Positions 1 to 13,757 of a stretch of DNA of 44,800 nt are shown piece by piece (the first letter of the stretch is position 1; each line of letters starts with the position of its first letter). The notes beneath the pieces were generated by a model. It did no database searches. It was given only the letters and a program-made list of their open reading frames with translations, and had not been told where the DNA came from. Source of the stretch: Rhodocyclales bacterium (GTDB lineage: Bacteria > Pseudomonadota > Gammaproteobacteria > Burkholderiales > Rhodocyclaceae); assembly GCA_016235165.1 (NCBI GenBank), contig JACRLX010000004.1, forward strand, positions 1-44,800, read 5' to 3'. Made by a program: the position numbers and the translations under genes.

Positions 1-1632
1 GATGCCCTCGGCGCCCATGGCGCGGGCGATGCCGGCGAAGGACTGGTTGTCGAGTTCGCCGGCGACGAAGCGGCGGTTGTAGAAGTCGACCTGGTTCTTC
101 TTCTCCGCGCCCCACTGGCGGTTGTGGAAGACGACGGCGGTCACCGGGATGTTGTGGCGCACGCAGGTCATGGTTTCCATCAGGCTCATGCCCCAGGCGC
201 CGTCGCCGGCATACGAGATCGCCGGCCGGTGCGGCGCGGCCACCTTGGCGCCGATCATGGTGGGGAAGGCGTAGCCGCAGTTGCCGAAGCTCATGGCGGC
301 GAAGAAGCTGCGCGGCTTTTCAAAGCGCAGGTAGCTGTTGGCCACCGAGTTGATGTTGCCGATGTCGGTGGACACCATTACGTCGGGCGGCATGGCCTTT
401 TCCAGCTCGCGCAGCACCTGGCGCGGATGCAGGTAACGGCCGCCGTTGAAGGTGGTTTCCTTGCCGTTCTCGTCGATCATGTCCAGGCTGTAGGGGTCGC
501 GCTCATGGGTCCAGTCGTCGAGCTCCTTTTCCCACGCGGCCTTCTCGTCCTTGATCTTGGCGGCGCGCTCGGCCTTTGTGGCGTCGCAGGCCAGGCTGCG
601 GCCGGCCAGGCGCTGCGTCAGGGCAATGGCGGCGGCCCTGGCGTCGCCGCAGATGCCGACCGAGATTTTCTTGACCAGGCCCAGCATGGTGTTGTCGGCG
701 TCGATCTGGATGATCTTGGCATCCTTGGGCCAGTAGTCCATGCCGTGCTGCGGCAGGGTGCCGAAGGGGCCGAGCCGGCTGCCCAGCGCCACCACCACGT
801 CGGCCTGGGCGATGAGCTTCATCGCCGCCTTCGAGCCCTGGTAACCCAGAGGGCCGCACCATAGCGGGTGGCTGGCGGGGAAGGAGTCGTTGTGCAGGTA
901 GCTGTTCACCACCGGCGCGCCCAGGCGCTCGGCCAGGGCCTTGCATTCCTCGACGCCGTTGGCCATCACCACGCCGCCGCCGGAGATGATGACTGGGAAC
1001 CTGGCCTTGGCCAGCAGCTCGGCGGCTTCGTTCAGCGTCTGCTCGCCGCCGGGGCCGCGATCGAGGCGGAAGGGTTTGGGGATCTCGCAGGTGATGTCGC
1101 CGTAGAAATAGTCGCGCGGGATGTTGAGCTGGGTCGGGCCCATTTCGCTCATGGCGCGGTCGAAGCAGCGGCCGGTGAATTCGGCCATGCGCTTGGGATT
1201 GTTCACGTGGCCCTGGTACTTGGTGAATTCCTGGAACATCGGCAACTGGTTGGCTTCCTGGAAACCGCCTAGGCCCATGCCCATGGTGCCGGTTTCGGGG
1301 GTGACGATCACCACCGGGCTGTGCGCCCAGTAGGCGGCGGCGATGGCGGTGACGCAGTTGCTGATGCCGGGGCCGTTCTGGCCGATCACCACGCCGTGGC
1401 GGCCCGAGACGCGGGCATAGCCGTCGGCCATGTGGCCGGCGCCCTGCTCGTGCACCACCGGGATCAGGCGGATCCCGGCCGGGGCGAAGATGTCCATCGC
1501 ATCCATGAAGGCCGAGCCCATGATGCCGAACATGTCGGTCACGCCATTGGCGACCATGGTTTCGACGAAGGCTTCGGAAGGGGTCATGCGGGTCGGGCCG
1601 CTGGGGACGGTGCGGGTGTCTTTGGCGCTCAT
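1..1632 (-). CDS. xsc: Sulfoacetaldehyde acetyltransferase (3' end beyond window)
   Basis: This is a thiamine-diphosphate enzyme that converts sulfoacetaldehyde plus phosphate to acetyl phosphate and sulfite, the desulfonation step of taurine, isethionate and sulfoacetate breakdown in the cytoplasm. The first 544 residues are in the window; family members run to about 600. Visible landmarks are the cofactor-activating Glu62 in VVHEQGAGHMADGYARV, the stretch TPETGTMGMGLGGFQE (111-126) typical of Xsc rather than of acetolactate synthase, and the diphosphate-binding GDGAWG (476-481) with NRQWG (504-508). The ATG at 1632 follows a GAGGAG ribosome site; it adds about 15 residues before the usual MTPSEAFVETMVANG start, and Met16 is an alternative. 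It is divergent from an iclR gene, with a strong promoter between them. Confidence 0.95.
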   Translation of the reverse strand, partial: MSAKDTRTVPSGPTRMTPSEAFVETMVANGVTDMFGIMGSAFMDAMDIFAPAGIRLIPVVHEQGAGHMADGYARVSGRHGVVIGQNGPGISNCVTAIAAAYWAHSPVVIVTPETGTMGMGLGGFQEANQLPMFQEFTKYQGHVNNPKRMAEFTGRCFDRAMSEMGPTQLNIPRDYFYGDITCEIPKPFRLDRGPGGEQTLNEAAELLAKARFPVIISGGGVVMANGVEECKALAERLGAPVVNSYLHNDSFPASHPLWCGPLGYQGSKAAMKLIAQADVVVALGSRLGPFGTLPQHGMDYWPKDAKIIQIDADNTMLGLVKKISVGICGDARAAAIALTQRLAGRSLACDATKAERAAKIKDEKAAWEKELDDWTHERDPYSLDMIDENGKETTFNGGRYLHPRQVLRELEKAMPPDVMVSTDIGNINSVANSYLRFEKPRSFFAAMSFGNCGYAFPTMIGAKVAAPHRPAISYAGDGAWGMSLMETMTCVRHNIPVTAVVFHNRQWGAEKKNQVDFYNRRFVAGELDNQSFAGIARAMGAEGI

Positions 1633-1727: not shown

Positions 1728-1760
1728 AAAAACGAGACAAGTTGTATCGAAAAACGAAAC
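1728..1760. promoter_or_regulatory. Putative IclR operator between xsc and iclR
   Basis: A 17-base near-palindrome, CGAGACAAGTTGTATCG (1733-1749), has one mismatched pair around a central G. It is overlapped by two direct repeats, AAAAACGAGAC (1728-1738) and AAAAACGAAAC (1750-1760), spaced 22 bases, about two helical turns. The block sits immediately upstream of the xsc -35 and just ahead of the iclR start, the expected place for a regulator that controls both. Binding is inferred, not shown. Confidence 0.5.
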
Positions 1761-1777
1761 GGTATAGGATGCGGGGC

Positions 1778-2593
1778 ATGAATGCCGCCACCGCCCGAAA
1801 AGCTTTGCCCGAGCCCGTCGCCATCGACGGCGACACGCCCACGCTGCGCCTGTTCTCGCTGCTGGAAGTGATCGCGCGCAAGAACCACTTCTTCACCCTG
1901 CCGGCGCTGGTGGAAGAGACCGGCCTGCCCAAGCCGACGCTGCATCGCATGCTGCAGCAGCTGGAAAGCGCCGGCATGATCCAGCGCGAAGCCGACGGCC
2001 GCCACTACGGCATGGCCCTGCGCCTGCGCCGCCTGGGCGAGGACCTGCTGTTCAACAGCACGGTGCATGGCGCGCGCCACGCCGTGTTGCGCACCCTGGT
2101 CGACGAGGTCGGCGAAAGCTGCAACATCACTGCGCTGGCCGGTGGCGAGGTGCTCTACCTCGACCGAGTCGAGACGCCGGCGCCGCTGCGCTTCTATTTG
2201 CATCCCGGCTCGCGCGTGCCGGTGCATTGCTCGGCCAGCGGCAAGCTCTTCCTGGCGCAGATGTATGCGGCGCAGCGCGCCCGCCTGCTGGAGCCGGTGA
2301 AGCTGGAGCGCTACACGCAGAACACGCTGACCGACCGCGCCGCGCTGGAACGCGAGGTGCAGCAGGTGGCGGCCGACGGCTACGCGCTCGACCGAGAGGA
2401 ATTCCTGCCCGGGCTGTTCTGCATCGCCGTGCTGGTGCCGGGCCCGGAGGGGCGCGCCTCGAACACCGGCATCGCCATCCAGGCGCCCTCGCTGCGCCTG
2501 TCGCCGGAGCATGTGCCCAAAGTGCTGCCGGCCCTGCGCCGTGCCGCCAAGGCGCTGGCGCGCATCGATACGCAGGCGGTAGCGGCGGCATGA
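1778..2593 (+). CDS. IclR-family transcriptional regulator
   Basis: Predicted 271-residue DNA-binding regulator. An N-terminal winged helix-turn-helix (about 22-80, with [28 protein letters not shown] carrying the recognition helix) is followed by an IclR effector domain (about 95-265) with the family signature [15 protein letters not shown]. The start at 1778 puts the HTH at the usual distance; an in-frame ATG at 1769 and a TTG at 1742 are alternatives, but the latter would run through the operator. It is divergent from xsc and is the first gene of the run leading into the CobS-like gene, whose ATG overlaps its stop (ATGA). It probably controls xsc, its own operon, or both. The ligand is unknown; sulfoacetate or sulfoacetaldehyde is a guess from context. 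Confidence 0.9.
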
Positions 2594-3612
2594 GCGAGCT
2601 TTCGCAGATCCGCCCGACGCAGCGCGTCAAGGTGCGCGAGGTCTTCGGCATCGATTCCAACCTCGTGGTGCCGGCCTTCGCCGAGCGCGACGACCACGTG
2701 CCCGAGATCGACGCCGCCTACCGCTTCAACCCCGACGTGACGCTGGCCATCCTCGCCGGCTTTTCGCGCAACCGCCGCGTGCTGGTGCAGGGCCTGCACG
2801 GCACCGGCAAATCCACCCACGTCGAACAGGTCGCGGCGCGGCTCAACTGGCCCTGCGTGCGCGTGAACCTCGACGGCCACATCAGCCGACTTGAGCTGGT
2901 GGGCAAGGATGCCATCGTGTTGCGCGAGGGACTGCAGGTCACCGAGTTCCAGGAAGGCATCGTGCCCTGGGCGCTGCAGCGGCCGGTGGCGCTGCTGTTC
3001 GACGAGTACGACGCCGGGCGGCCCGACGTGATGTTCGTGATCCAGCGCATCCTCGAACGCGACGGCAAGTTCACCCTGCTCGACCAGAACCGCGTGATCC
3101 AGCCGCATCCCGATTTCCGCCTGTTCGCCACGGCCAACACCCTGGGCCTGGGCAACCTGACCGGCATGTACCACGGCACCCAGGTGCTCAACCACGGCCA
3201 GATCGACCGCTGGAACATCGTCGCCACGCTGAACTACCTGTCGCGCGCCGAAGAGGTGGCGATCGTGCTGGCGCGCGTGCCCTCGATGGATACCGGGGCG
3301 GGACGCAAACTGGTGAACTCGATGGTGGCGATGGCCGAGCTGACGCGCAAAGGCCACGCCGCGGGCGACCTGACGCTGCTGATGTCGCCGCGCACGGTGA
3401 TCACCTGGGCCGAGAACTGCGAGATCTTCGGCGACACTGCGCAGGCCTTCCGCCTGTCCTTCCTCAACAAGTGCGACGAGGTCGAGCGCGCGCTGGTGGC
3501 CGAGTACTACCAGCGCTGCTTCGATGTCGAGTTGCCGGAGGCGGCTGGGGCAGAAGTCGGCGTCCCACAGGGACTTCCTTCGGTCGCCGGCGGGACGGCG
3601 CCGGCGGCGTGA
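2590..3612 (+). CDS. CobS-like AAA+ ATPase
   Basis: 340-residue AAA+ protein closely resembling the CobS subunit of aerobic cobaltochelatase. Walker A is GLHGTGKST (68-76), Walker B is [10 protein letters not shown] (134-143), and sensor 1 is FATAN (179-183). The segments [18 protein letters not shown] and [12 protein letters not shown] are also characteristic of CobS. In CobNST, CobS and CobT form the ATP-driven chelatase module while CobN binds the porphyrin; no CobN or other cobalamin gene is in the window. The C-terminal tail (about 320-338) is encoded by repeat DNA shared with other loci, so the terminus looks recently remodelled. ATGA overlap upstream and GTGA overlap downstream imply coupled translation. 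It could be true CobS or a paralog serving as an ATP-dependent remodeller for another protein; context favours the second. Confidence 0.85.
3556..3601. repeat. Composite repeat in the tail of the cobS-like gene
   Basis: AGTCGGCG starts the element, a hairpin unit GTCCCACAGGGACTTCC plus TTCGG (3562-3583) follows, and CGCCGGCGGGACGGCG ends it. The outer parts match the dispersed repeat family; the inner unit matches the hairpin repeat in gatB. This may be the full-length form from which the shorter copies derive. Confidence 0.55.
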
Positions 3613-5339
3613 CGCCCGTTCCGCAAAACGCTCGGCAGCGCCAGCAGCGCGCCGAGGAGCTGGCCGCCGCCACGTTGCGCGCACTGGCCGGAGATGCCCG
3701 GTTGGAATTTCGTGGCGGCCGCCTGTGCCGCGATGCGCGGCCGCTGCCCATTCTGGCGCCGCACCTGCGGCTGGATACCGGGGTCGCCGAATTCGGCGAT
3801 TGCCGCGGCCTCGCCGACAGCGTCGCGCTGCGCCTGCAGCACAGCGATGCGGCGGTCTTCGCCGCGGCCTGCCCGGCCGAGGGCATCGAGCGACTTGTCT
3901 TCGACTGGCTGGAGCAGATGCGCGTCGAGGCCCTGGCCGATGCGGCGCTGCCGGGCCAGGCGCGCAACCTGCGGCGGCGCTTCGAGCACTGGGCGCGCGA
4001 CTACCACCGCGCCGGGTTGACGCGCGGCGACTTCGGCATGCTGATGTACGCGCTGGCGCAGGCCTGCTGGTCGCACCTGAGCGGCTACCCGGTGCTGGAA
4101 GAAACCGAGGAATCCACCGAGGGCATGCGCGCCAGCTTTTCCGAACCGCTGGGCGCGGCCTTCGCCGGCCTGCGCCGCCATCGTGCCGACCAGGCGGCTT
4201 TCGCGCCTTACGCGCTCGCCGTGGCGCGCCACGTCGCCGGTCGCGTGCCGCCGCTACAGCACGCGGCGAAGCAGGACGACGAGAACGCCGACGAGGAAGA
4301 CGAAGCGAAACGGCGCTTCCGCCTGCTGCTGAATTTCGAGGACGGGGCCGAGCAGGCCTTTTCGCTGCCCGAGAGCGGCGAAAGCCGGCTCTACGTAGAT
4401 TCAGAAGATGGCTACCGCGTTTTCAGCCGCGCCTGGGATGTCGAGCACGACGCGGCGACCCTGCTGCGCCGCGCCCTGTTGCAGGAATACCGCGAGCATC
4501 TCGACCGCCGCGTCGCCGCCGCCGGCATCAACCTGCGGCGGCTGGCGCGCGAGCTGCGCCAACTGCTGGCCGTGCCGAGGCCCGACGGCTGGCTGTTCGA
4601 CGAGGAGGACGGCCGCATCGACGGCCGCCGCCTGGCGCGGCTGCTGACCTCGCCCGAGGAGCGCCGCCTGTTCCGCCGCGACCGCGCGCAACCCAGCGCC
4701 GAGGATTGCGTCGTCAGCCTGCTGGTCGATTGCTCGGGCTCGATGAAGGCGCAGGCCGAGGCCGTGGCGGTGCTGGGCGACATCCTGCTGCGTGCGCTGG
4801 AGATGGCGGGCATCGCCAGCGAGCTGCTCGGCTTCACCACCGGCACCTGGAACGGCGGCCGGCCGCAGCGCGAATGGCTGGCGGCGGGCAGCCCGGCGGC
4901 GCCGGGGCGGCTCAATGAGGTTTGCCACCTGGTGTTCAAGCCGGCCTCGCGGCCCTGGCGGCGCGCGCGCCCCGGCATCGCCGCGCTGTTGAAGCCCGAC
5001 CTGTTCCGCGAAGGCGTGGATGGCGAGGCAGTGGACTGGGCCTGCGAGCGGCTGCTGGCGCGCGAGGCGCGGCGCCGTATCCTGATCGTGATTTCCGACG
5101 GTTGCCCCAACGACGCCGCGACGCGGCGCGCCAACGATGCCTTCTACCTCGACCACCACCTGCGCGAGGTGGTGGCGCGGCGCGAACGCCAGGGCGCGGT
5201 CGAGATCCTCGGCCTCGGCGTCGGACTCGACCTCAGCCCCTTCTACCGGCGCTGCCTGGCGATCGATCTCGCCGCGCCGCCCGACAACGCCCTGTTCGGC
5301 GAAATCCTGCAACTCATCGGCGGCCGGCATCGCCGCTAG
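3609..5339 (+). CDS. CobT-like protein with C-terminal VWA domain
   Basis: 576 residues from the GTG at 3609, which overlaps the previous stop as GTGA. The N-terminal half (1-215) is helical and poorly conserved. A short acidic linker (222-234, [10 protein letters not shown]) precedes a CobT-like C-terminal half. The VWA domain (about 366-570) has an intact metal-ion-dependent adhesion site: DCSGS (374-378), a Thr in GFTTGTW (408-414), and SDG (496-498). The stretches from LLRALEMAG to FTTGTWNGG and [18 protein letters not shown] are typical of cobaltochelatase CobT. It is somewhat shorter than CobT, with a reduced acidic linker. AAA+/VWA pairs such as CobS/CobT, NorQ/NorD and CbbQ/CbbO load metals or activate enzymes. 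Its partner here is presumably the preceding ATPase; the target is unknown. Confidence 0.82.
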
Positions 5340-5350
5340 AAAGGACAGCA

Positions 5351-5704
5351 ATGGCCAAGAAACGCCTGGTGGTGCAGTTCGGCATGGGTCAGTCGATCCG
5401 CCGCGTCGATTACACCGAGGCCGCCGCGCGCGCGATCCGCGATGCGCTGTGGCACAACTCGCTCAACGTGGCCGAGGCCTTCGGCTACCCCAAGGAGAAG
5501 ATGCTGATCGACGTCGAGATCGGCGTGCAGAAGCCGGAGGAGGTCGACACCTCGAAGCTGATGGACATCTTCCCCTACGGCCGGCCCTCGATCCGCGTCG
5601 TCTTCGGCGGGCTCGACATCCCCAAGCCGCACCGCGAGGGCGTGAATGTCATCGCCAATGCCGCGGTCATGGTGTCCTTCGACATGGAGGCGGCCCATGG
5701 CTGA
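5351..5704 (+). CDS. Lin0512-family protein, copy A
   Basis: 117 residues, starting at an ATG six bases after AAGGA. It matches the small, broadly distributed Lin0512 family, which has no established function. Seen here: VQFGMGQSIRRVDYTEAAARA near the N-terminus, VQKPEEVDT in the middle, and GGLDIPKP followed by VIANAAV near the end. Compared with copy B it lacks the acidic and Gly residues of the GNDLYGED motif (it has GQSIRRVD), so any chemistry relying on those residues may reside only in B. It lies 11 bases after the CobT-like gene and overlaps copy B by 8 bases, so all four genes are probably one transcript. A heterodimer of A and B is a reasonable guess. Confidence 0.8.
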   Translation: MAKKRLVVQFGMGQSIRRVDYTEAAARAIRDALWHNSLNVAEAFGYPKEKMLIDVEIGVQKPEEVDTSKLMDIFPYGRPSIRVVFGGLDIPKPHREGVNVIANAAVMVSFDMEAAHG

Positions 5705-6074
5705 GATCGAACAGCGCATCATCCTCGAAACTGGCAGCGGCAACGACCTCTACGGCGAGGACTACACCAAGGCGGCCTGCCGCGCCGTGCAGGACGCCCT
5801 GCACCATTCCTCGATCACGATGTTTCGCAGCCTCGGCATGGACCACACGCGCATGCGCGTGCAGGTAACCATCGCCGTGCAGCAGCCGGAGAAGGTCGAC
5901 ACGGCGGTGGTCGCCGCCGAGCTGCCGCGCGGCCGCGCCGAAGTGCGCGCCGTGCGCGGTGGGCTGAACGTGCATGACGCCGACGCCGGCACCACGCACG
6001 TCATCGCCACCGCGGCCATCGAGGCCTGGGTGCCGGTGGATGCGGAAGCGTGGCGCTTGAGCGTTGGCGCCTGA
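5697..6074 (+). CDS. Lin0512-family protein, copy B
   Basis: 125 residues; the ATG at 5697 overlaps the stop of copy A by 8 bases. It carries what I take to be the canonical family motif, ETGSGNDLYGEDYTKAA (11-27). The rest aligns with copy A without large gaps: DYT-x-AA-x-RA-xx-DAL-x-H, VQxPExVDT, GGLxV and VIATAA. A and B are therefore tandem duplicates that have diverged. The function of the family is not known to me; the constant link here to a CobS/CobT-like pair suggests the Lin0512 proteins are substrates, scaffolds or metal-binding partners of that pair. It is the last gene of the iclR-cobS-like-cobT-like operon; a dispersed repeat copy follows its stop directly. Confidence 0.8.
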   Translation: MAEIEQRIILETGSGNDLYGEDYTKAACRAVQDALHHSSITMFRSLGMDHTRMRVQVTIAVQQPEKVDTAVVAAELPRGRAEVRAVRGGLNVHDADAGTTHVIATAAIEAWVPVDAEAWRLSVGA

Positions 6075-6106: not shown

Positions 6107-6694
6107 TCAGGACTTGCGCTTCGCTGCCCTGGGTTTGCCCGGGGCTTCCTCGGGAGTGATGAAGCCTATCGGCCGCTTTTTTGCCGCTGGCGGCGGCGCC
6201 ATCAACTGGCGGATGGCGTTCAGGATGCCGGCGATGGCCTGGTCGTGGGTCGACAGCTTGCGCTCGATGCGTGCTTCCAGTTCGTCGAGCCGTTTCGCCA
6301 GTTCGCGATGGCCGGCAAGCAGCTCGCGCAACTGTACAAAGGCGCGCACCACGAAGATCGACACTTCCACGGCGCGCGGGCTGTTCAGCACTGTCGCGGC
6401 CATGATCGCTCCGTGCTCGGTGAAGGCGAGGGGCAGGTACTTTCGGTGTTGACCCCGGCCTGGCTTTAAGGTCGCAATTTGCGACCTTAAAGCCTCCCAC
6501 TCGTGCTCATCGAGCGGGAACATGAAATCCGCCGGAAAGCGTTCCGCGTTGCGTTTGACCTGCTCATTGAGCCGCTTGGTCGGCACGCCATAAAGCGCTG
6601 CCAGGTCGCTGTCGAGCATGACCCGCTGGCCGCGCAGCGTGAGGATGCGGCCGGCGATGCCATCGACGGCAACGGAGATGTTCGCCTCACTCAT
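6107..6694 (-). CDS. ORF6N-domain protein
   Basis: 195 residues with an N-terminal ORF6N domain (about 14-105): LTLRGQRVMLDSDLAALYGV, the KRNAERFPADFMF segment and a LAFTEHGAIMAATVLNS block. These DNA-binding-associated domains are usually found in phage or phage-derived antirepressor-type proteins. A coiled-coil region (about 125-165) and a basic, Pro-rich tail follow. The ATG overlaps the stop of the upstream iclR gene (ATGA), so the two are co-translated, which is unusual for this family and suggests a shared regulatory task or a hitchhiking insertion. It could instead be an unrelated cargo gene; no other phage genes are nearby. Confidence 0.88.
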   Translation of the reverse strand: MSEANISVAVDGIAGRILTLRGQRVMLDSDLAALYGVPTKRLNEQVKRNAERFPADFMFPLDEHEWEALRSQIATLKPGRGQHRKYLPLAFTEHGAIMAATVLNSPRAVEVSIFVVRAFVQLRELLAGHRELAKRLDELEARIERKLSTHDQAIAGILNAIRQLMAPPPAAKKRPIGFITPEEAPGKPRAAKRKS

Positions 6695-7488
6695 TCCGAC
6701 CCTTCCTCGAAAGTCGGCGCCACGGCGCGCGCGGCGGCCAGCAGGCTGGGCACGAACTCCATCGCCTGCGCCAGCGTCAGGCGCGCCACCGGGGCCTGCA
6801 GCGCGACGGTGGCGATGACGCGGTTCCTGGCGTCGGTCACCGGCACCGCGATGCCGATCACGCCGGCCTGCAATTCCTCGTTGTTGATGCCGATGCGGGT
6901 CCTGGCGATTTCCGCCAGCTGCGCTTCCAGTTCGGCGACATCGGTGATGGTGTTCGCCGTGTAGCGCCTGAGGCTCATGGCCTCCAGCAGCTTGCGCCGC
7001 CGCGCCTTCGGCATCTGGCTGAGGAAGAGCTTGCCGCTCGAAGTGCAATGCAGGGGTACGCGCGAGCCGGGCTTGAGTTCGGCCTTGAGCGCCCAGTCGG
7101 TTTCGACGCGGTCGATGTAGATGATCTCGTCGCCGTGCAGCATGGCCAGGTTGCAGGTCTCGCCGATCTCGTCCACCACACGGCGCAGGATGGCGCGGCG
7201 TTCCAGGCGCGGCCCGTTGTTGCTCAACACCTCGACGCCGAGGCGCACCAGGCGGTGGCCGACGCCGTAGGTCTTGCCGCTCGGTTCGCGCTGCAGCAGG
7301 CCGGCGCTTTCCAGCAGGCTCAGGATGCGGTAGGCGGTGGGGGCCGGCAGGCCGGCGGCCTCGGCAATCTCGGTCAGTGGCAGCGGGCGTTCGCTGCGGG
7401 CAACGATTTCCATGATGCCCACCGCGCGCAGGGCGGCGGCGGAACTCGGTTCGGCAGCAGGTTCGGCAGGGAAGGGCGCGGGACTCAT
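6691..7488 (-). CDS. IclR-family transcriptional regulator (second)
   Basis: 265 residues. A winged HTH (about 18-78, LTEIAEAAGLPAPTAYRILSLLESAGLL) is followed by an IclR effector domain with SRVPLHCTSSGKLFLSQ. I chose the ATG at 7488 because translation from the far upstream ATG (7575) would prepend an implausible Phe/Cys-rich 29 residues encoded by the operator region. It is divergent from the sauS-sauT-tctCBA operon and most likely regulates it. It differs clearly from the first IclR protein, so the island has two dedicated regulators, one per divergent promoter region. The ligand is unknown. Confidence 0.9.
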   Translation of the reverse strand: MSPAPFPAEPAAEPSSAAALRAVGIMEIVARSERPLPLTEIAEAAGLPAPTAYRILSLLESAGLLQREPSGKTYGVGHRLVRLGVEVLSNNGPRLERRAILRRVVDEIGETCNLAMLHGDEIIYIDRVETDWALKAELKPGSRVPLHCTSSGKLFLSQMPKARRRKLLEAMSLRRYTANTITDVAELEAQLAEIARTRIGINNEELQAGVIGIAVPVTDARNRVIATVALQAPVARLTLAQAMEFVPSLLAAARAVAPTFEEGSE

Positions 7489-7530
7489 GGCATGGGCAGG
7501 GTGGGCGATTTGCGGGCAGCTTATCCGAAA

Positions 7531-7564
7531 TTTCAAAAAATGAAAACAACTATTTCGATAGTTG
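7531..7564. promoter_or_regulatory. Tandem inverted repeats, putative IclR operator
   Basis: A perfect 7-base inverted repeat, CAACTAT (7547-7553) and ATAGTTG (7558-7564) around TTCG, is preceded by TTTCA-aaaaa-TGAAA (7531-7545). The A/T-rich block stands out from its GC-rich surroundings and lies between the divergent second iclR gene and the sauS-like gene. A TTGACA (7575-7580) follows just downstream on the plus strand, but I see no good -10 at the right distance, as is common for activated promoters. Confidence 0.55.
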
Positions 7565-7638
7565 AAAAAATACATTGACAGCCGCAGAGTGCAGGTTCAA
7601 GATTGCTAAATTCGAAAACAATTCTTTCATAAATAAGC

Positions 7639-9075
7639 ATGGATTCATCGGCGGATCAGACGCTGCGGGGGCCGCAACCGGAAGCAAAGTTGATCGTCGG
7701 CGAGCTCATTGCCCGTGCGCGGGCCGCCCAGCGCGTGTACCAGCAATGCAGTCAGGCCGAGGTCGACATGGCGGTGCTTGGCGCCGGCTGGGCCATCATG
7801 GAGCCGGGCCGCAACCGCGCGCTGGCCGAGATGGCGGTGCGCGACACCGGGCTGGGCGACGTCGAGGACAAGGTCACCAAGAATCACCGCAAGACCCTGG
7901 GCCTGCTGCGCGACCTCAAGGGTGTGAAAACCGTTGGCGTGATCGCCGAATATCTCGACCTGGGCCTGGTCGAAATCGCGCGCCCGGTTGGCGTGGTGGT
8001 GGCGATCACGCCCTCGACCAATCCGGCGGCGACGCCGGCCAACAAGGTGATCAACGCGCTCAAGTGCCGCAATGCCGTGATCGTCGCGCCCTCGCCCAAG
8101 GGCCTGTCGACCTGCCAGGCGCTGGTCGGCCACATCCATGCCGAGCTGAAGAAGCTGGGCCTGCCGCTGGACCTGGTGCAGTGCCTGCCGGCGCCGGTGA
8201 CCAAGGACAGCACGCAGGAGCTGATGCGCCAGGCCGACCTGGTGGTCGCCACGGGTTCGCAATCCAACATCCGCGCCGCCTATACCTGCGGCACGCCGGC
8301 CTTCGGCGTCGGCGCCGGCAACGTGGCCTCGATCATCGATGTCTCGGCCGACCTGGAGGAAGCGGCGGCGGCGATCATGGCCTCCAAGACCTTCGACAAT
8401 GCCACCAGCTGTTCCTCCGAGAACAGCGTGGTGATCCTCGATGCCGTCTATGCCGATGCCATCGCAGCGCTGGAGGCCGCCGGCGGCGTGATGCTGGACA
8501 CCGCCGGGAAGGCGCAATTGCAGGCCGCGATGTGGCCTCAGGGCAAGCTCTCCAGCGCTGTCACCGCGCAAAAGGCCAGCCGCATCGCACAGATCGCCGG
8601 CTTGCAGGGTGGACGCTTCGAGTCCGCGCGCTTCCTGATGGTGGAGGAGGTCGGCGCCGGGCCGGACTACCCGTATTCCGGCGAAAAGCTCTCGCCGGTG
8701 CTGGCCGTGTATCGGGTGCGCGACTTCGATGCCGCCTGCGCCACGGTCGCTGCGATCTACAGCTACCAGGGCGCCGGCCATTCGGTCAGCATCCATTCCG
8801 CGAACGACGAGCACATCCTGCGCTTGGGCCTTGAGCTGCCGGTAAGCCGCGTGATCGTGAACCAGGCGCACTGCTTCGCCACCGGCGGCGCCTTCGACAA
8901 CGGCCTGCCCTTCTCGCTGTCGATGGGCTGCGGCACCTGGGGCCGCAACAATTTCTCGGACAACATGAGCTACCGCCAGTACATGAACACCACGCGTATC
9001 GCGCGCAAGATTCCGCCGCGCATGCCCACCGAAGCCGAGATCTTCGGCGACTACCTGGCAAAGCACGGTGGCTGA
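7639..9075 (+). CDS. sauS: Acylating aldehyde dehydrogenase, SauS-like
   Basis: 478-residue CoA-acylating aldehyde dehydrogenase, predicted here to reduce sulfoacetyl-CoA to sulfoacetaldehyde with NAD(P)H, or the reverse. NAD-fold residues include ITPSTNPAATPANK (123-136) and the glycine-rich FGVGAGNVASIID (222-234); the nucleophile is Cys258 in FDNATSCSSENSVV. This arrangement is shared with acetaldehyde and succinate-semialdehyde acylating dehydrogenases, so the substrate is assigned from context: a CoA ligase follows directly and xsc is in the same island. No clear Shine-Dalgarno precedes the ATG. Its stop overlaps the GTG of the ligase gene. The specific name sauS is an inference of moderate strength; the enzyme class is secure. 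Confidence 0.8.
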   Translation: MDSSADQTLRGPQPEAKLIVGELIARARAAQRVYQQCSQAEVDMAVLGAGWAIMEPGRNRALAEMAVRDTGLGDVEDKVTKNHRKTLGLLRDLKGVKTVGVIAEYLDLGLVEIARPVGVVVAITPSTNPAATPANKVINALKCRNAVIVAPSPKGLSTCQALVGHIHAELKKLGLPLDLVQCLPAPVTKDSTQELMRQADLVVATGSQSNIRAAYTCGTPAFGVGAGNVASIIDVSADLEEAAAAIMASKTFDNATSCSSENSVVILDAVYADAIAALEAAGGVMLDTAGKAQLQAAMWPQGKLSSAVTAQKASRIAQIAGLQGGRFESARFLMVEEVGAGPDYPYSGEKLSPVLAVYRVRDFDAACATVAAIYSYQGAGHSVSIHSANDEHILRLGLELPVSRVIVNQAHCFATGGAFDNGLPFSLSMGCGTWGRNNFSDNMSYRQYMNTTRIARKIPPRMPTEAEIFGDYLAKHGG

Positions 9076-10588
9076 GCCGATGCCGCGCACGGTCCGCGCC
9101 TGGGTCGAACGCCGCGCGGCGGAGACTCCCGACGCCACCTACCTGATCGCGCCCGAGACCGGGCGCAGGCTGAGCTTCGGCGGACTGCAAGCCGCCTCGC
9201 GCCGCCTTGCCACTTTCCTTGCGCAACGCGGTGCACAGCCGGGCGAACGCGTGGCGCTCTTGATGCCCAACGGCTTCCAGACCTGCCGCCTGTTCATCGG
9301 CGTGATGTACGGCGGCTACTGCGTGACGCCGGTGAACCTGCTGGCCCAGCCTTCGCAACTGGCTTACGTGCTCGACCACTGCGACGCGAAAATCGCCTTC
9401 GTCGCGCCCGATCAGGTCGAGCGGCTGCACGAGGCGATGAGGGAAGTTTCGCGCCCGCTCGACGTGGTGGTTTGCGACCCGGATGCCGAGGAGTTCATCG
9501 CCGTCGCCGCAGCGCCGACTTTGCCGCCGGTGGCCGAGGAAAGCGACGCGCTGATGATGTACACCTCGGGCACCACGGGCAAGCCCAAGGGCGTGGTGCT
9601 GGCCAATCGCGCGGTGATTGCCGGCGGCGAATACGTCTCGCAGGTGCATGAACTGACGCCGGCGGACTGCGTCATGGCGGTGCTGCCGCTGTACCACATC
9701 AATGCCCAGATCGTCACCGCCACCGCGCCGTTGGTGCATGGCGGCAGCCTGGTACTGCCGCGCAGGTTCAGTGCCTCGAATTTCTGGGAGACGGTGGCCG
9801 CACAGCATTGCACCTGGATCAACGTGGTGCCGACCATCATCGCCTATCTGCTCAACGGCGAGACGCCGCAGGCCAAGGGGCTGGACATCTCGCGCGTGCG
9901 TTTCTGCCGTTCCGCCTCGGCGCCGCTGGCGCCGGCCCACCACCGCGCCTTCGAGGCCAGGTTCGGCATCGGCATCATCGAGACCATGGGCCTCACCGAG
10001 ACCGCCGCGCCCTGCTTTTCGAACCCGCTCGTTCCGGCCCGGCGCAAGATTGGCAGCCCCGGGCCGGCCTTCGGCAACGAGGCGAAGATCATCGACGCCG
10101 AAGGACGCACCCAGCCACACGGACAAACCGGCGAGATCATGGTGCGTGGCGACAACGTGATGACCCGCTATTACAAGAACCCCGAGGAGACGGCCAAGGC
10201 GCTGACGGCCGACGGCTGGCTGCATACCGGCGACCTCGGCCACATGGACGCCGACGGCTTCGTCTTCGTCACCGGCCGGCTCAAGGAACTGATCATCAAG
10301 GGCGGCGAGAACATCGCCCCGCGCGAGATCGACGAGGCCCTGCTCAAGCACCCGGCATTGCTGGAAGCCGCCGCGGTGGGCGTGCCCGATGAGGCCTATG
10401 GCCAGGAGATCGTCGCCTGCGTGGTGACCAGGCCGGGCCAACAGTGCAGCGTCGACGAACTGCGCGAATACTGTCGCGGTGCGCTGGGCAGCTACAAGAC
10501 GCCGAAGGAATTCCGCTTCGTCGACGACCTGCCCAAGGGGCCGTCGGGCAAGGTGCAACGACTGAAGCTGCTGGAGGTTTTCAAGTAG
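9068..10588 (+). CDS. sauT: AMP-forming acyl-CoA ligase, SauT-like
   Basis: 506-residue member of the ANL superfamily, predicted to activate sulfoacetate to sulfoacetyl-CoA with ATP. The adenylation P-loop is YTSGTTGKPKGVV (165-177). Also present are an ETMGLTET motif, WLHTGDLGHMDADGF, the hinge GRLKELIIKGGENI and the catalytic Lys495 in PSGKVQR. The GTG start overlaps the previous stop by 8 bases; an ATG at 9080 is the alternative and would remove four residues. Many carboxylates are used by this family, so sulfoacetate is inferred from the dehydrogenase, the transporter and the nearby xsc. An 82-base gap separates it from the transporter genes. Confidence 0.78.
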   Translation: MAEPMPRTVRAWVERRAAETPDATYLIAPETGRRLSFGGLQAASRRLATFLAQRGAQPGERVALLMPNGFQTCRLFIGVMYGGYCVTPVNLLAQPSQLAYVLDHCDAKIAFVAPDQVERLHEAMREVSRPLDVVVCDPDAEEFIAVAAAPTLPPVAEESDALMMYTSGTTGKPKGVVLANRAVIAGGEYVSQVHELTPADCVMAVLPLYHINAQIVTATAPLVHGGSLVLPRRFSASNFWETVAAQHCTWINVVPTIIAYLLNGETPQAKGLDISRVRFCRSASAPLAPAHHRAFEARFGIGIIETMGLTETAAPCFSNPLVPARRKIGSPGPAFGNEAKIIDAEGRTQPHGQTGEIMVRGDNVMTRYYKNPEETAKALTADGWLHTGDLGHMDADGFVFVTGRLKELIIKGGENIAPREIDEALLKHPALLEAAAVGVPDEAYGQEIVACVVTRPGQQCSVDELREYCRGALGSYKTPKEFRFVDDLPKGPSGKVQRLKLLEVFK

Positions 10589-10670: not shown

Positions 10671-11639
10671 ATGAAATCCCTGACACGCCTGATCACCCTG
10701 ACCGGAGCGAGCGTGCTCGCCGCCGGCAGCCTGTTCGCCGGTGCCGCGCTGGCCCAGGAAAAGTACCCCTCGCGGCCGATCGAGTTCATCGTGCCCTGGG
10801 GGCCGGGCGGCGGCGCCGACCAGCTGGCGCGCAAGGTCGGCAAGATGCTCGAGGACAACCTCAAGGTCTCCTTCCCGGTGGTCAATGCGCCGGGCGCCAC
10901 CGGTGCCACCGGCATGACCAAGCTGCTGGTGGGCCAGCCCGACGGCCATGCCATGTCCGTGTACATCGCCGACACCCACGCGCTGCAGGTCACCGGCGCC
11001 ACCAAGTGGAAGCCGGGCGACTTCAAGGCGCTGGCGATCATGGTGCAGCAGCCGTCGGCGATCCTGGTGCCGATGGATAGCCGCTTCAAGACCTGGGCCG
11101 ATTTCGAGAAGGAAGCCAAGGCCAATCCGGGCAAGCTCAAGGTGGCCGTGCTGGGCCTCGGCAGCATCGACGACGTGACCCTGCGCTACCTCGGCAGCAA
11201 GGGCGTCAAGACCAATGCCGTGCCCTTCTCCAATCCGGGCGAGCGCTATGTTTCCATCCTCGGCGGCCATGCCGACGCGCTCTACGAACAGGCCGGCGAC
11301 CTGCGCCAGATGCTGGACAACAAGCAGATGCGCCCGTTGCTGATCTTCGCCAACGAACGCGTGGCGGAGTTCAAGGACATCCCGGTGTCGAAGGAGCTGG
11401 GCTACAACGTCACGCTGCCGCAGTTCCGCTCCATCGTCGTCAAGGCCGGCACGCCGCCCGAGCGCGTCAAGTTCCTCGCCGACGCCATCGCCAGGGCCGC
11501 CGCTTCGCCCGAGTACAAGGCCTTCCTCAAGGACAGCTACGCCGACCCCGGCAGCTATCTGGGGCCGGACGAGGCCGACAAGTTCCTCAAGCACGAGATG
11601 GACGCGCTGTCGGCCCTGGTCGCCAGCGTCGGCAAGTAA
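10671..11639 (+). CDS. tctC: TctC-like periplasmic solute-binding protein
   Basis: 322 residues with a Sec signal peptide (1-28, cleavage after ALA) followed by the tripartite tricarboxylate receptor fold (Bug family): EKYPSRPIEFIVPWGPGGGADQLAR at the mature N-terminus is diagnostic. It captures an organic anion in the periplasm and passes it to TctBA. A strong AAGGAGG (10655-10661) precedes the ATG. The receptor comes first in the transporter trio, as is usual. In this island the ligand is probably sulfoacetate or another C2 sulfonate, taking the place of the permease SauU used in other bacteria; this is inference from the neighbours. Confidence 0.9.
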   Translation: MKSLTRLITLTGASVLAAGSLFAGAALAQEKYPSRPIEFIVPWGPGGGADQLARKVGKMLEDNLKVSFPVVNAPGATGATGMTKLLVGQPDGHAMSVYIADTHALQVTGATKWKPGDFKALAIMVQQPSAILVPMDSRFKTWADFEKEAKANPGKLKVAVLGLGSIDDVTLRYLGSKGVKTNAVPFSNPGERYVSILGGHADALYEQAGDLRQMLDNKQMRPLLIFANERVAEFKDIPVSKELGYNVTLPQFRSIVVKAGTPPERVKFLADAIARAAASPEYKAFLKDSYADPGSYLGPDEADKFLKHEMDALSALVASVGK

Positions 11640-11672
11640 GCCGCAGCCACCCATCTCCCGGAGCCTCGGCGC

Positions 11673-12233
11673 ATGGACAAGACTAGCCGCAAAGACACGA
11701 TTCCCTACTTCATCGTTCTTGCCATCGCCGCGGGGCTCTTCGTCCATGCCGGCAGCATCGGCTCGATGGGCAGCGCCGATCGCGCCATCGGGCCGTCGTT
11801 CTGGCCGCGGCTGGTCCTCGGCCTGGGCATGTGCGTCTGCGTTTTCGAACTGGTGTTCCGCTGGTTCTTCGACATGGAGGGCACCGGCGGCCTGCTTTCG
11901 CAGGTGGAGCAGCAGATGGACGGCGAGGGCGCGGCGGCCGAGGCGCCGGAGGAGCGCAATCTGCCGCAGCTGCTGCTTGGCGTCGGCCTCACCCTGGCCT
12001 ACGTCTGGGCGCTGCCGGTGCTCGGTTTTGCCGTCGCCTCGCTGATCTTCATCGCGCTTTTCATCTGGCTCGGCACTTACCGCAAGACTAAGGTGGTGGC
12101 CGCGGTCAGTGTGCTCGGCACCCTGCTGCTGATGTTCATCTTCATGAAGGTGGTCTACGTTTCGCTGCCGCTGGGCAGTGGCCCCTTCGAGGGCATTTCG
12201 GTGTTCCTGATGGGCCTGCTGGGCGTACGCTGA
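11673..12233 (+). CDS. tctB: TctB-like small membrane subunit
   Basis: 186 residues with about four hydrophobic helices (roughly 12-28, 43-65, 98-130 as two short helices, and 139-165) and an acidic, Ala-rich cytoplasmic loop (75-95). Length and layout match the small integral-membrane subunit of tripartite tricarboxylate transporters, which pairs with TctA. Sequence conservation in this subunit is low, so its position between tctC and tctA is the main evidence. It starts 33 bases after tctC; tctA starts 9 bases after its stop. Confidence 0.85.
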   Translation: MDKTSRKDTIPYFIVLAIAAGLFVHAGSIGSMGSADRAIGPSFWPRLVLGLGMCVCVFELVFRWFFDMEGTGGLLSQVEQQMDGEGAAAEAPEERNLPQLLLGVGLTLAYVWALPVLGFAVASLIFIALFIWLGTYRKTKVVAAVSVLGTLLLMFIFMKVVYVSLPLGSGPFEGISVFLMGLLGVR

Positions 12234-12242
12234 GGACGATTC

Positions 12243-13757
12243 ATGGACGTCATCTCCCAACTCGGTTCCGGCTTTGCCAACGTCTTCGTTCCCGCCAACC
12301 TGCTGGCGCTGGTGATCGGCACCATCGCCGGCATGCTGGTCGCCGTGCTGCCCGGCCTGACACTGGTGATGGGCGTGGTGCTGGCCCTGCCCTTCACCTA
12401 TCAGCTGGGCATCACGCCGGCGGTGATCCTGCTCACCGCGATGTACATCACCGGCACCTACGGCGGCGCCTTCACCGCGATCCTGTTCAAGGTGCCGGGC
12501 GAGCCGCTCGATGTGCCGCTGCTGTGGGACGGCTGGCGCATGGCGCAGTCGGGCCGCCCGGCCGAGGCGCTGGGCTGGACGCTGTTTGCCGCCTTCTTCG
12601 CCGGCATCCTGACAGTGATCTGCATGGTGGCGATGGCGGTGCCTTTCGCCAGGTTCGCCCTCAAGTTCGACGCGCCGGATTATTTCGCCATCATCGTCTT
12701 CGGCCTCACCAGCGTGGTGGCGCTGGGCGGGGCTTCGCTGACCAATGCCTTCATCAGCCTCTTCGTCGGCCTCTTCATCGCCACCATCGGCGTCGAGGAG
12801 ACCTTCGGCGCCGAGCGCTTCAGCTTCGGTGTGCCGCTGCTGGCGGACGGCGTCGAGTACCTGACCGTGATGGTCGGCGCCTACGGCGTGGGCGAGGTGC
12901 TGGTGCGCTTCGAGCAGGGCTTCAAGACCACACCGATGGCGATGGGCGCCAAGGTACAGACCAAGCTGCCGAGCCTGATCGACGCCATCCGCCTGCGCGC
13001 CACCTTCCTGCGCAGCTCGCTGATCGGCCTGCTGGCCGGTATCGTGCCGGGCGCCGGGGCAACCATTGCCTCCTTCGTGTCCTACGGCATCGAGCGCCAG
13101 TACGGCGCCAATGGGGCAAAGATGGGGTCCGGTTGCGCGGAAGGTATCGTCGCACCGCAGATCGCCTCGACCGCCTCGGTCGGCGGCCACATGGTGCCGC
13201 TGCTGGTGCTGGGCATCCCGGGCAGCGGCGCCACGGCGGTGATCCTCGGCGCCTTCCTGCTGCACGGCGTGCAGCCGGGACCGCAGATCTTCCAGACCCA
13301 GCCGCAGATGGTCTACACCCTGTTCGCCTCGATGTTCGTCGCCGTCTTCGCCATGTGCCTGCTCGGCTATTTCGCGATCGAGCCGCTGGTGCGCGTGCTC
13401 TACTTCCCCGAGGCGATCACCTCGGCCTATGTCGTGATGCTGTGCTTCATCGGCGCCTTCGCCGCGCGCAACAACCTGACCGACCTGTGGATGGTGGCCA
13501 TCTTCGGCGTCATCGGCTACCTCTTCGAGCGCCTCAAGTTCCCCGTCGCGCCGATGATCCTCGGTTGCATCCTCGGGCCGACCGCGGAGCGCACTTTCCA
13601 GACCACCATGATCAGCTTCCAGAACGACTGGACCGTCTTTCTCCAGCGTCCGGTCAGTGGCACGGTGATGCTGCTCGCCGCCGTCGCGCTGGGAGTGCCC
13701 ATCGTCAAGGCCTGGAAGGACACCTACATCCCGGCCATCCGCCGCGGCAGGAAGTGA
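12243..13757 (+). CDS. tctA: TctA-like large membrane subunit
   Basis: 504-residue polytopic membrane protein with about 11-12 helices. It has the family signatures GTIAGMLVAVLPGLTLVMGV near the N-terminus, YITGTYGGAFTAILFKVPGEP in the first half, and IVPGAGATIASFVSYGIE with GIPGSGATAVILGAF in the second half; the two halves are internally related, as in other TctA proteins. It forms the ion-coupled channel that imports the ligand captured by TctC. It is the last gene of the operon. No convincing terminator follows; the 152 bases before dapF contain one dispersed repeat copy. Confidence 0.92.
   Translation: MDVISQLGSGFANVFVPANLLALVIGTIAGMLVAVLPGLTLVMGVVLALPFTYQLGITPAVILLTAMYITGTYGGAFTAILFKVPGEPLDVPLLWDGWRMAQSGRPAEALGWTLFAAFFAGILTVICMVAMAVPFARFALKFDAPDYFAIIVFGLTSVVALGGASLTNAFISLFVGLFIATIGVEETFGAERFSFGVPLLADGVEYLTVMVGAYGVGEVLVRFEQGFKTTPMAMGAKVQTKLPSLIDAIRLRATFLRSSLIGLLAGIVPGAGATIASFVSYGIERQYGANGAKMGSGCAEGIVAPQIASTASVGGHMVPLLVLGIPGSGATAVILGAFLLHGVQPGPQIFQTQPQMVYTLFASMFVAVFAMCLLGYFAIEPLVRVLYFPEAITSAYVVMLCFIGAFAARNNLTDLWMVAIFGVIGYLFERLKFPVAPMILGCILGPTAERTFQTTMISFQNDWTVFLQRPVSGTVMLLAAVALGVPIVKAWKDTYIPAIRRGRK

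Follow-up and report, generated by a model that had tools for sequence, protein, structure and literature searches.

A CobST-like AAA+/VWA gene pair associated with one clade of sulfoacetaldehyde acetyltransferase, and its possible role as an enzyme activator

The window examined in this study is an entire contig of 44,800 bases (contig C4; GenBank JACRLX010000004.1) from the genome of a Rhodocyclales bacterium (assembly GCA_016235165.1, here labelled G000). An IclR-family regulator gene, a cobS-like AAA+ ATPase gene, a cobT-like gene and two Lin0512 genes form one tight, partly overlapping operon that faces xsc, the gene encoding sulfoacetaldehyde acetyltransferase (Xsc). Relatives of the cobS-like and cobT-like genes (cobST) are linked to xsc across many loci and co-inherited with one Xsc clade (clade I), and the window CobS is separate from canonical CobS. 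The robust association is that of cobST with xsc, not that of cobST with Lin0512. The best-supported explanation, to which we give a probability of roughly 55%, is that this CobST-derived AAA+/VWA pair is off cobaltochelatase duty and is instead dedicated to clade I Xsc, which it would activate, mature or, as a chaperone, repair; we infer which protein the pair serves, that it remodels this protein at the cost of ATP, and by what chemistry. A preliminary description, made from the sequence alone, had proposed a dedicated maturation or activation pair with the Lin0512 proteins or Xsc as clients, and it is the second of these clients that the present results favor.

The preliminary description placed four overlapping or closely spaced genes at 2590..6074, and both limits coincide with gene calls. 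Its account of an operon shared with the IclR regulator and facing xsc also held, as successive genes are separated by overlaps of 4, 4 and 8 nucleotides (nt) and one gap of 11 nt, and xsc lies on the minus strand. The CobS-like protein matches PF12556 (CobS_N, 51.6 bits) and AAA_5 (42.2 bits), and the CobT-like protein matches PF06213 (CobT) and PF11775 (CobT_C), in each case above the Pfam cut-offs. The Walker and metal ion-dependent adhesion site (MIDAS) motifs, described earlier as intact, are indeed so in translation: the CobS-like protein contains GLHGTGKST (Walker A) and LLFDEYD (Walker B), and the CobT-like protein contains the MIDAS residues D374, S376, S378, T411 and D497, which are invariant in 38 aligned CobT-like proteins. 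The CobT-like protein consists of a helical N-terminal part, a short acidic linker and a C-terminal VWA domain carrying the MIDAS, and its AlphaFold model has a mean predicted local distance difference test score (pLDDT) of 77.5. Although truncated, xsc scores 980.9 bits on TIGR03457 (cut-off 676.4). For each gene, the nonsynonymous substitution rate (dN) was lower than the synonymous rate (dS) in comparisons with loci L060, L062, L136 and L075, the last from a strain of Halomonas elongata (L060, L136 and L075 for xsc), so that purifying selection on the operon genes and xsc is evident at the level of substitution rates. Because dN is below dS and relatives are present in numerous named genomes of beta- and gammaproteobacteria, the operon genes are not chance open frames.

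An early look at neighborhoods in genomes of the same order found xsc, rather than Lin0512 genes, beside most CobST-like pairs. Contigs were then scanned with an alignment of 11 CobT-like sequences, and the best 80 of at least 296 relatives were kept as loci. A gene with more than 60% identity to xsc was found in 65 of these loci (64 under a stricter E-value). Forty-eight loci extended at least 9 kilobases (kb) to either side of cobT and were considered fully flanked, the other 32 being left out; xsc was present in 45 of the 48, making it the most constant of the pathway genes scored. The three fully flanked loci without xsc look like taurine or sulfoacetate loci, two of them (L093 and L111) carrying TauXY/TauR-type genes and the third (L114) carrying sauS and sauT. 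As a control, xsc was found in none of 21 loci with canonical-clade CobS (6.9 to 20 kb each), even though nine of the genomes concerned, G462 included, have xsc elsewhere; the control leaves out L189 and L190, which are of the xsc-linked type (xsc-side) and contain no xsc within the locus. L196, in which CobS is partial, was dropped before counting. Among 64 loci, xsc lay upstream and divergent with an IclR gene between in 22, upstream and divergent without IclR in 13, upstream on the cobST strand in two, and downstream in 27. The upstream modules of the fully flanked loci were of the taurine type in 35 cases and contained sauS in nine (one locus has both), with neither in five; the taurine-type and sauS-type names in these counts are putative, having been read off cluster representatives. 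The cobS and cobT genes themselves overlap or are separated by at most 20 nt in 71 of 77 loci.

Co-inheritance was examined in samples of 200 genomes from the order and 369 from the class, with a check for full-length CobS in the 44 genomes containing xsc. Of the 200 order genomes, 10 contained CobS_N, 10 contained Lin0512 and 24 contained xsc above the cut-off. An xsc-side CobST pair was found in 10 of 13 genomes with clade I Xsc compared to none of 30 genomes with other Xsc, eight of which have a canonical-clade CobS instead. Genome G259, with a partial xsc under the cut-off and no CobS match, was left out of the 30. In the order set alone the proportions were 7 of 8 and 0 of 16 (Fisher p 2.3e-5, relatedness ignored), a value that overstates independence because the presence of the pair switches just two times along the Xsc tree. 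Of the 10 clade I carriers, seven have xsc within 10 kb of the pair, while xsc is about 28 kb away in G158 and on another contig in G462 and G246. Among the 176 order genomes without xsc, CobS_N matches were found in only two, one of the canonical clade (G169) and one partial and left unplaced (G129). On the Xsc tree, which was built by a quick method from 76 of 103 rows with those of the CobT scan subsampled, all 42 pair-carrying rows fall into one clade (SH-aLRT 100) together with three rows without the pair. Greater weight is placed on the genome samples than on this tree, since the way in which the CobT-scan rows were chosen guarantees that they have the pair.

The window pair belongs to the same families as CobS and CobT of the CobNST cobaltochelatase, with the same gene order and the same combination of an AAA+ and a VWA protein with intact motifs, and the resemblance extends to known structures (the CobT-like profile matches PDB CobT 9uka at E 4e-117, and the window CobS matches 9ujv at E 1.6e-143). 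However, both proteins fall below the NCBIfam equivalog cut-offs, CobS by less (521.2 bits on TIGR01650, cut-off 558.55) and CobT by far (296.6 bits on TIGR01651, cut-off 759.05). The proteins of Sinorhizobium meliloti (CobS 651, CobT 1166.4) and Sphingomonas (CobS 599.4, CobT 838.8) pass both, whereas all xsc-side proteins tested miss them (four of four CobS at 407-536 and six of six CobT at 203-317), with those of G246 lowest. On a quick CobS tree with several long branches (77 of 113 rows, CobT-scan rows subsampled), a canonical clade of 21 rows (SH-aLRT 99) contains no xsc-linked row, and the window CobS, at 59-69% identity to its members, lies outside it. This clade includes alphaproteobacterial loci, four of them annotated with BolA, a J-domain protein, cobS and cobT and one unannotated, as well as two CobN-bearing genomes and others; the G246 CobS is the most divergent row of the tree and its placement is unsure. 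The window pair is the sole CobS/CobT pair found in G000, where the other CobS matches are two much weaker AAA hits.

The earlier statement that no cobN or other cobalamin gene is present is correct for the region but not for the genome. The late B12 genes cobQ, cbiB, cobD, cobB and cobA lie on contig C38, and one gene of the CobN superfamily lies on contig C9 (C9:69120-72386; L002 8791-13434, minus strand). CbiC/CobH (PF02570) had no match in G000, other corrin-ring genes not having been searched. The protein encoded on C9 scores 515 bits on TIGR02257 (cut-off 822), yet 1452 on PRK05989.2-2 (cut-off 1248), an NCBIfam CobN model. Inspection by eye indicated a signal-like N-terminus and a C-terminal hydrophobic segment, and the gene adjoins genes for a TonB receptor and a MotA/ExbB protein. 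According to PMC12583661, the heme de-chelatase HmuS has transmembrane regions at both ends and acts with a TonB-dependent receptor. Given these shared terminal regions and the TonB-receptor partner, the C9 protein should act outside the cytoplasm and is read as HmuS-like, although PRK05989.2-2 would call it CobN. Across a CobN/CbiC search of 38 genomes or records, which also took in five single plasmid records and some genomes lacking an xsc-side pair, there were 18 whole genomes with an xsc-side pair; CobN above the TIGR02257 cut-off was found in four of these and CbiC in four, leaving 14 of 18 without each. A fifth CobN candidate among the 18, in G064, scores 599 bits and is thus below the cut-off. 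That the window pair is the CobST of B12 cobaltochelatase, or the partner of the CobN-like C9 protein, therefore appears very improbable: the identity to canonical CobS, the late B12 genes and the PRK05989.2-2 score speak for it, but the lack of a CbiC/CobH match, the TIGR02257 score, the likely location of the C9 protein outside the cytoplasm and the missed equivalog cut-offs speak against it. A complete cobNST pathway using these very genes, which had been named as a refuting result, was looked for and is not supported, though late B12 genes are present.

A search for CobB initially seemed contrary to a role outside B12 synthesis, as it gave two matches in G000. The match on contig C2 is a CobB/CfbB-type amidase among putative dsr-type genes (read by eye), while that on C38 sits in the cluster of late B12 and Btu-type genes. 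In view of the latter cluster, the claim made for G000 is limited to CbiC/CobH having no match and does not extend to B12 genes as a whole. The two contigs contain other genes of metabolic interest, identified mostly by eye: dsr-type sulfur-oxidation genes beside the amidase on C2 (L203/L204) and nos-type genes of denitrification in the vicinity of the late B12 genes on C38 (L205/L206).

Xsc is a thiamine diphosphate (ThDP) enzyme that converts sulfoacetaldehyde to acetyl phosphate and sulfite, and the taurine and sulfoacetate routes encountered here converge on it. If the pair does serve clade I Xsc, the CobT-like VWA protein would engage the CobS-like ring and dock on Xsc, and ATP hydrolysis would pull or twist the active-site region of the enzyme, with the outcome that ThDP and metal are loaded or that an inhibited active site is cleared. 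Sulfite cleaves thiamine, according to PMC8839250, and the sulfite made by Xsc could be the chemical reason for needing an activator. A more specific and distinctly speculative version of this proposal casts the pair as a repairase that would do for Xsc, in sulfonate breakdown, what Rubisco activase does for Rubisco. Sulfite released beside ThDP would break the cofactor and jam the active site, and the CobS/CobT machine would use ATP to pry the site open so that the damaged cofactor leaves and fresh ThDP-Mg enters. Docking would perhaps take place on a loop that is present in clade I Xsc and missing from clade II, and the Lin0512 pair, where present, might dispose of a reactive by-product, given that its fold distantly resembles those of RidA and chorismate mutase. 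Clade I Xsc does contain a loop with acidic residues (approximately 384-392 of the L055 Xsc) where clade II is gapped, and this loop is a possible docking site. No clade I signature was found in the Xsc metal site in the rows viewed, where clades I and II have a similar GDG...N motif.

The closest functional parallels are the MoxR AAA+/VWA pairs (NorQ/NorD, CbbQ/CbbO and RavA/ViaA), in which, as described in PMC9976466 and PMC13036017, an AAA+ ATPase is co-encoded with a VWA partner and acts on a specific enzyme. The first of these sources reports that NorQD requires ATP hydrolysis, the VWA domain and surface carboxylates of the client (PMC9976466), and the second proposes that a NorQD-type ring twists a linker of its partner (PMC13036017). 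The window genes are likewise adjacent and coupled, and share a neighborhood and co-inheritance with one enzyme, Xsc. They differ in that CbbQ/NorQ chains match the window CobS weakly in sequence (5c3c at E 9.5e-8, 6l1q at E 2.2e-7), the window pair derives from CobST, and the client proposed for it uses ThDP and is neither Rubisco nor a respiratory enzyme.

Several observations weigh against Xsc being the client. Three sampled genomes with clade I Xsc (G142, G241 and G381) have no CobST, which together with the 30 other-Xsc genomes without an xsc-side pair indicates that the pair is not required for Xsc chemistry as such. Genomes that have clade I Xsc but no CobST keep the acidic loop in this enzyme, and the loop position is also acidic in clade III Xsc, which is not accompanied by an xsc-side pair. 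With only two changes of the pair label across the Xsc tree, a large part of the association could stem from one ancestral cluster, and the loci, having been kept as the best 80 of at least 296, are the nearest relatives of the window CobT and not a random draw. In addition, pta is nearly as frequent as xsc (Pta-like genes in 47 of 80 loci and 38 of the 48 fully flanked), and in G246 it is pta, not xsc, that lies beside cobST: at 8571-14866 of L190, dddP, pta, cobS and cobT are arranged in a single run opposite a TauA-like gene, and xsc is located on another contig. A G246 gene that was read by eye as a taurine aminotransferase was reassigned to DddP (dimethylsulfoniopropionate lyase family) on the basis of its hidden Markov model match, and the first assignment was dropped.

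There are two potential explanations in which Xsc is not the specific client. The pair may be a sulfonate-pathway activator with another client, such as Pta, the taurine dehydrogenase TauXY, or a sulfite-handling enzyme or regulator, as suggested by the frequency of pta, by the arrangement in G246 and by TauY-like genes in 34 of the 48 fully flanked loci. We consider this unlikely, since xsc alone is near-constant, the pair tracks one Xsc clade, eight of the nine fully flanked sauS loci are without taurine-type genes, and neither pta nor TauXY was seen in the first 14 kb of the window, a pta beyond the truncated xsc being possible. Alternatively, the pair may be a chaperone of general use or a system against sulfite stress that serves no one enzyme in particular and has been kept in the cluster by co-transfer, which would fit the two label changes and the clade I Xsc that manage without the pair. 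This appears somewhat less probable still, as the linkage holds through several gene orders, co-occurrence is maintained without close linkage in G158, G462 and G246, and purifying selection is evident.

The Lin0512 pair is an optional accessory and not the core of the system. Both window proteins are above the gathering score of PF09585 (23.4), Lin0512-1 at 110.8 bits and Lin0512-2 at 117.1, while on TIGR02058 (cut-off 56.85) the former passes at 59.7 and the latter is slightly under at 56.0. The AlphaFold model of Lin0512-1 (pLDDT 86.8) fits the family structure PDB 3c8l from Nostoc punctiforme (Foldseek E 3e-11, TM 0.79), and the folds of FtsZ, chorismate mutase and RidA are matched less well (E 3e-3 and up); a point of difference is that there are two diverged paralogues in fixed order, which are sometimes coupled to cobST. 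Linkage of Lin0512 genes with cobST in other genomes, for which the preliminary description had called, does exist: in 14 of the 80 loci cobT is immediately followed by lin1 and lin2, always in this order and overlapping by 8 nt. The genomes concerned are of the Azoarcus/Aromatoleum type, of the Halomonas type and of Oceanisphaera, along with one betaproteobacterial metagenome-assembled genome. This linkage speaks for the four genes being one system, in which the Lin0512 proteins would be the clients, as had been suggested, or an indispensable component. However, of the 75 loci in which 900 bases or more follow cobT, 61 do not have the pair, and six other genomes of the order sample have a Lin0512 pair without adjacent cobST (L036-L041). 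A four-gene system is accordingly improbable, and Lin0512 as a constant cobST partner was rejected; its presence beside cobT in 14 of 80 loci only is the reason for regarding it as accessory. In four of L036-L041 the pair lies beside an MDR-type oxidoreductase gene (identified by eye), which suggests a separate catabolic use there.

AAA+/VWA activator pairs and CobST themselves are already known. In the open-licence literature, no paper was found linking CobST or MoxR proteins with Xsc, which does not establish absence from print, and the word Lin0512 was found in no paper. If the proposed role is correct, a recurrent helper machine for one Xsc clade would alter both the reconstitution and the annotation of the pathway, a ThDP enzyme would join the clients of AAA+/VWA pairs, and a cobaltochelatase motor would have been recruited to another enzyme. 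It is also important to note that cobS and cobT labels in such genomes may not count as evidence for B12 synthesis.

Table 1. Positions of the operon, xsc and neighboring genes in the window.
Feature	Position	Strand	Remarks
xsc (sulfoacetaldehyde acetyltransferase, clade I)	1..1632	-	3' end lost at contig end; start codon (~1632) picked by eye
IclR-family regulator, operon gene 1	1742..2593	+	PF01614 and PF09339 above cut-off; true start probably slightly downstream of 1742
cobS-like AAA+ ATPase gene	2590..3612	+	340 amino acids; 4-nt overlap with IclR gene
cobT-like gene	3609..5339	+	576 amino acids; GTG start; 4-nt overlap with cobS-like gene
Lin0512-1 ('WHNS' type)	5351..5704	+	117 amino acids; 11-nt gap after cobT-like gene
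Lin0512-2 ('HHSS' type)	5697..6074	+	125 amino acids; 8-nt overlap with Lin0512-1
Second IclR regulator, adjoining sauS	6691..7575	-	PF01614 and PF09339 above cut-off
sauS, acylating sulfoacetaldehyde dehydrogenase (upstream pathway enzyme)	7639..9075	+	NF047625 759.4 bits, cut-off 600
Acyl-CoA ligase, sauT-like	9068..10588	+	PF00501 and PF13193; sauT assignment inferred from position after sauS
Tripartite tricarboxylate-type transporter, three genes	10671..13757	+	putative; open reading frames read by eye

A further gene of the window, located after the Lin0512 pair and before the second IclR gene, encodes a phage-type ORF6N domain (6107-6700, minus strand; PF10543, 113.5 bits). Some of the CobST loci identified elsewhere are noteworthy for their context. 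The contig of L138, labelled Saccharopolyspora oryzae (Actinomycetota), carries a typical proteobacterial xsc-IclR-cobS-cobT block (xsc 85% identical), and this block is probably assembly contamination. At 3383-10841 of L058, a Pandoraea oxalativorans plasmid, cobS and an annotated cobalt chelatase gene come directly after ureG beside a urease cluster (ureC, beta/gamma subunits and UreD), placing a CobST pair next to an enzyme other than Xsc. Two canonical-clade CobST pairs, in L188 (G462) and L048 (G083), genomes in which no CobN above the TIGR02257 cut-off was found, adjoin putative molybdo-hydroxylase subunits (open reading frames read by eye), an arrangement that recalls CoxD/CoxE.

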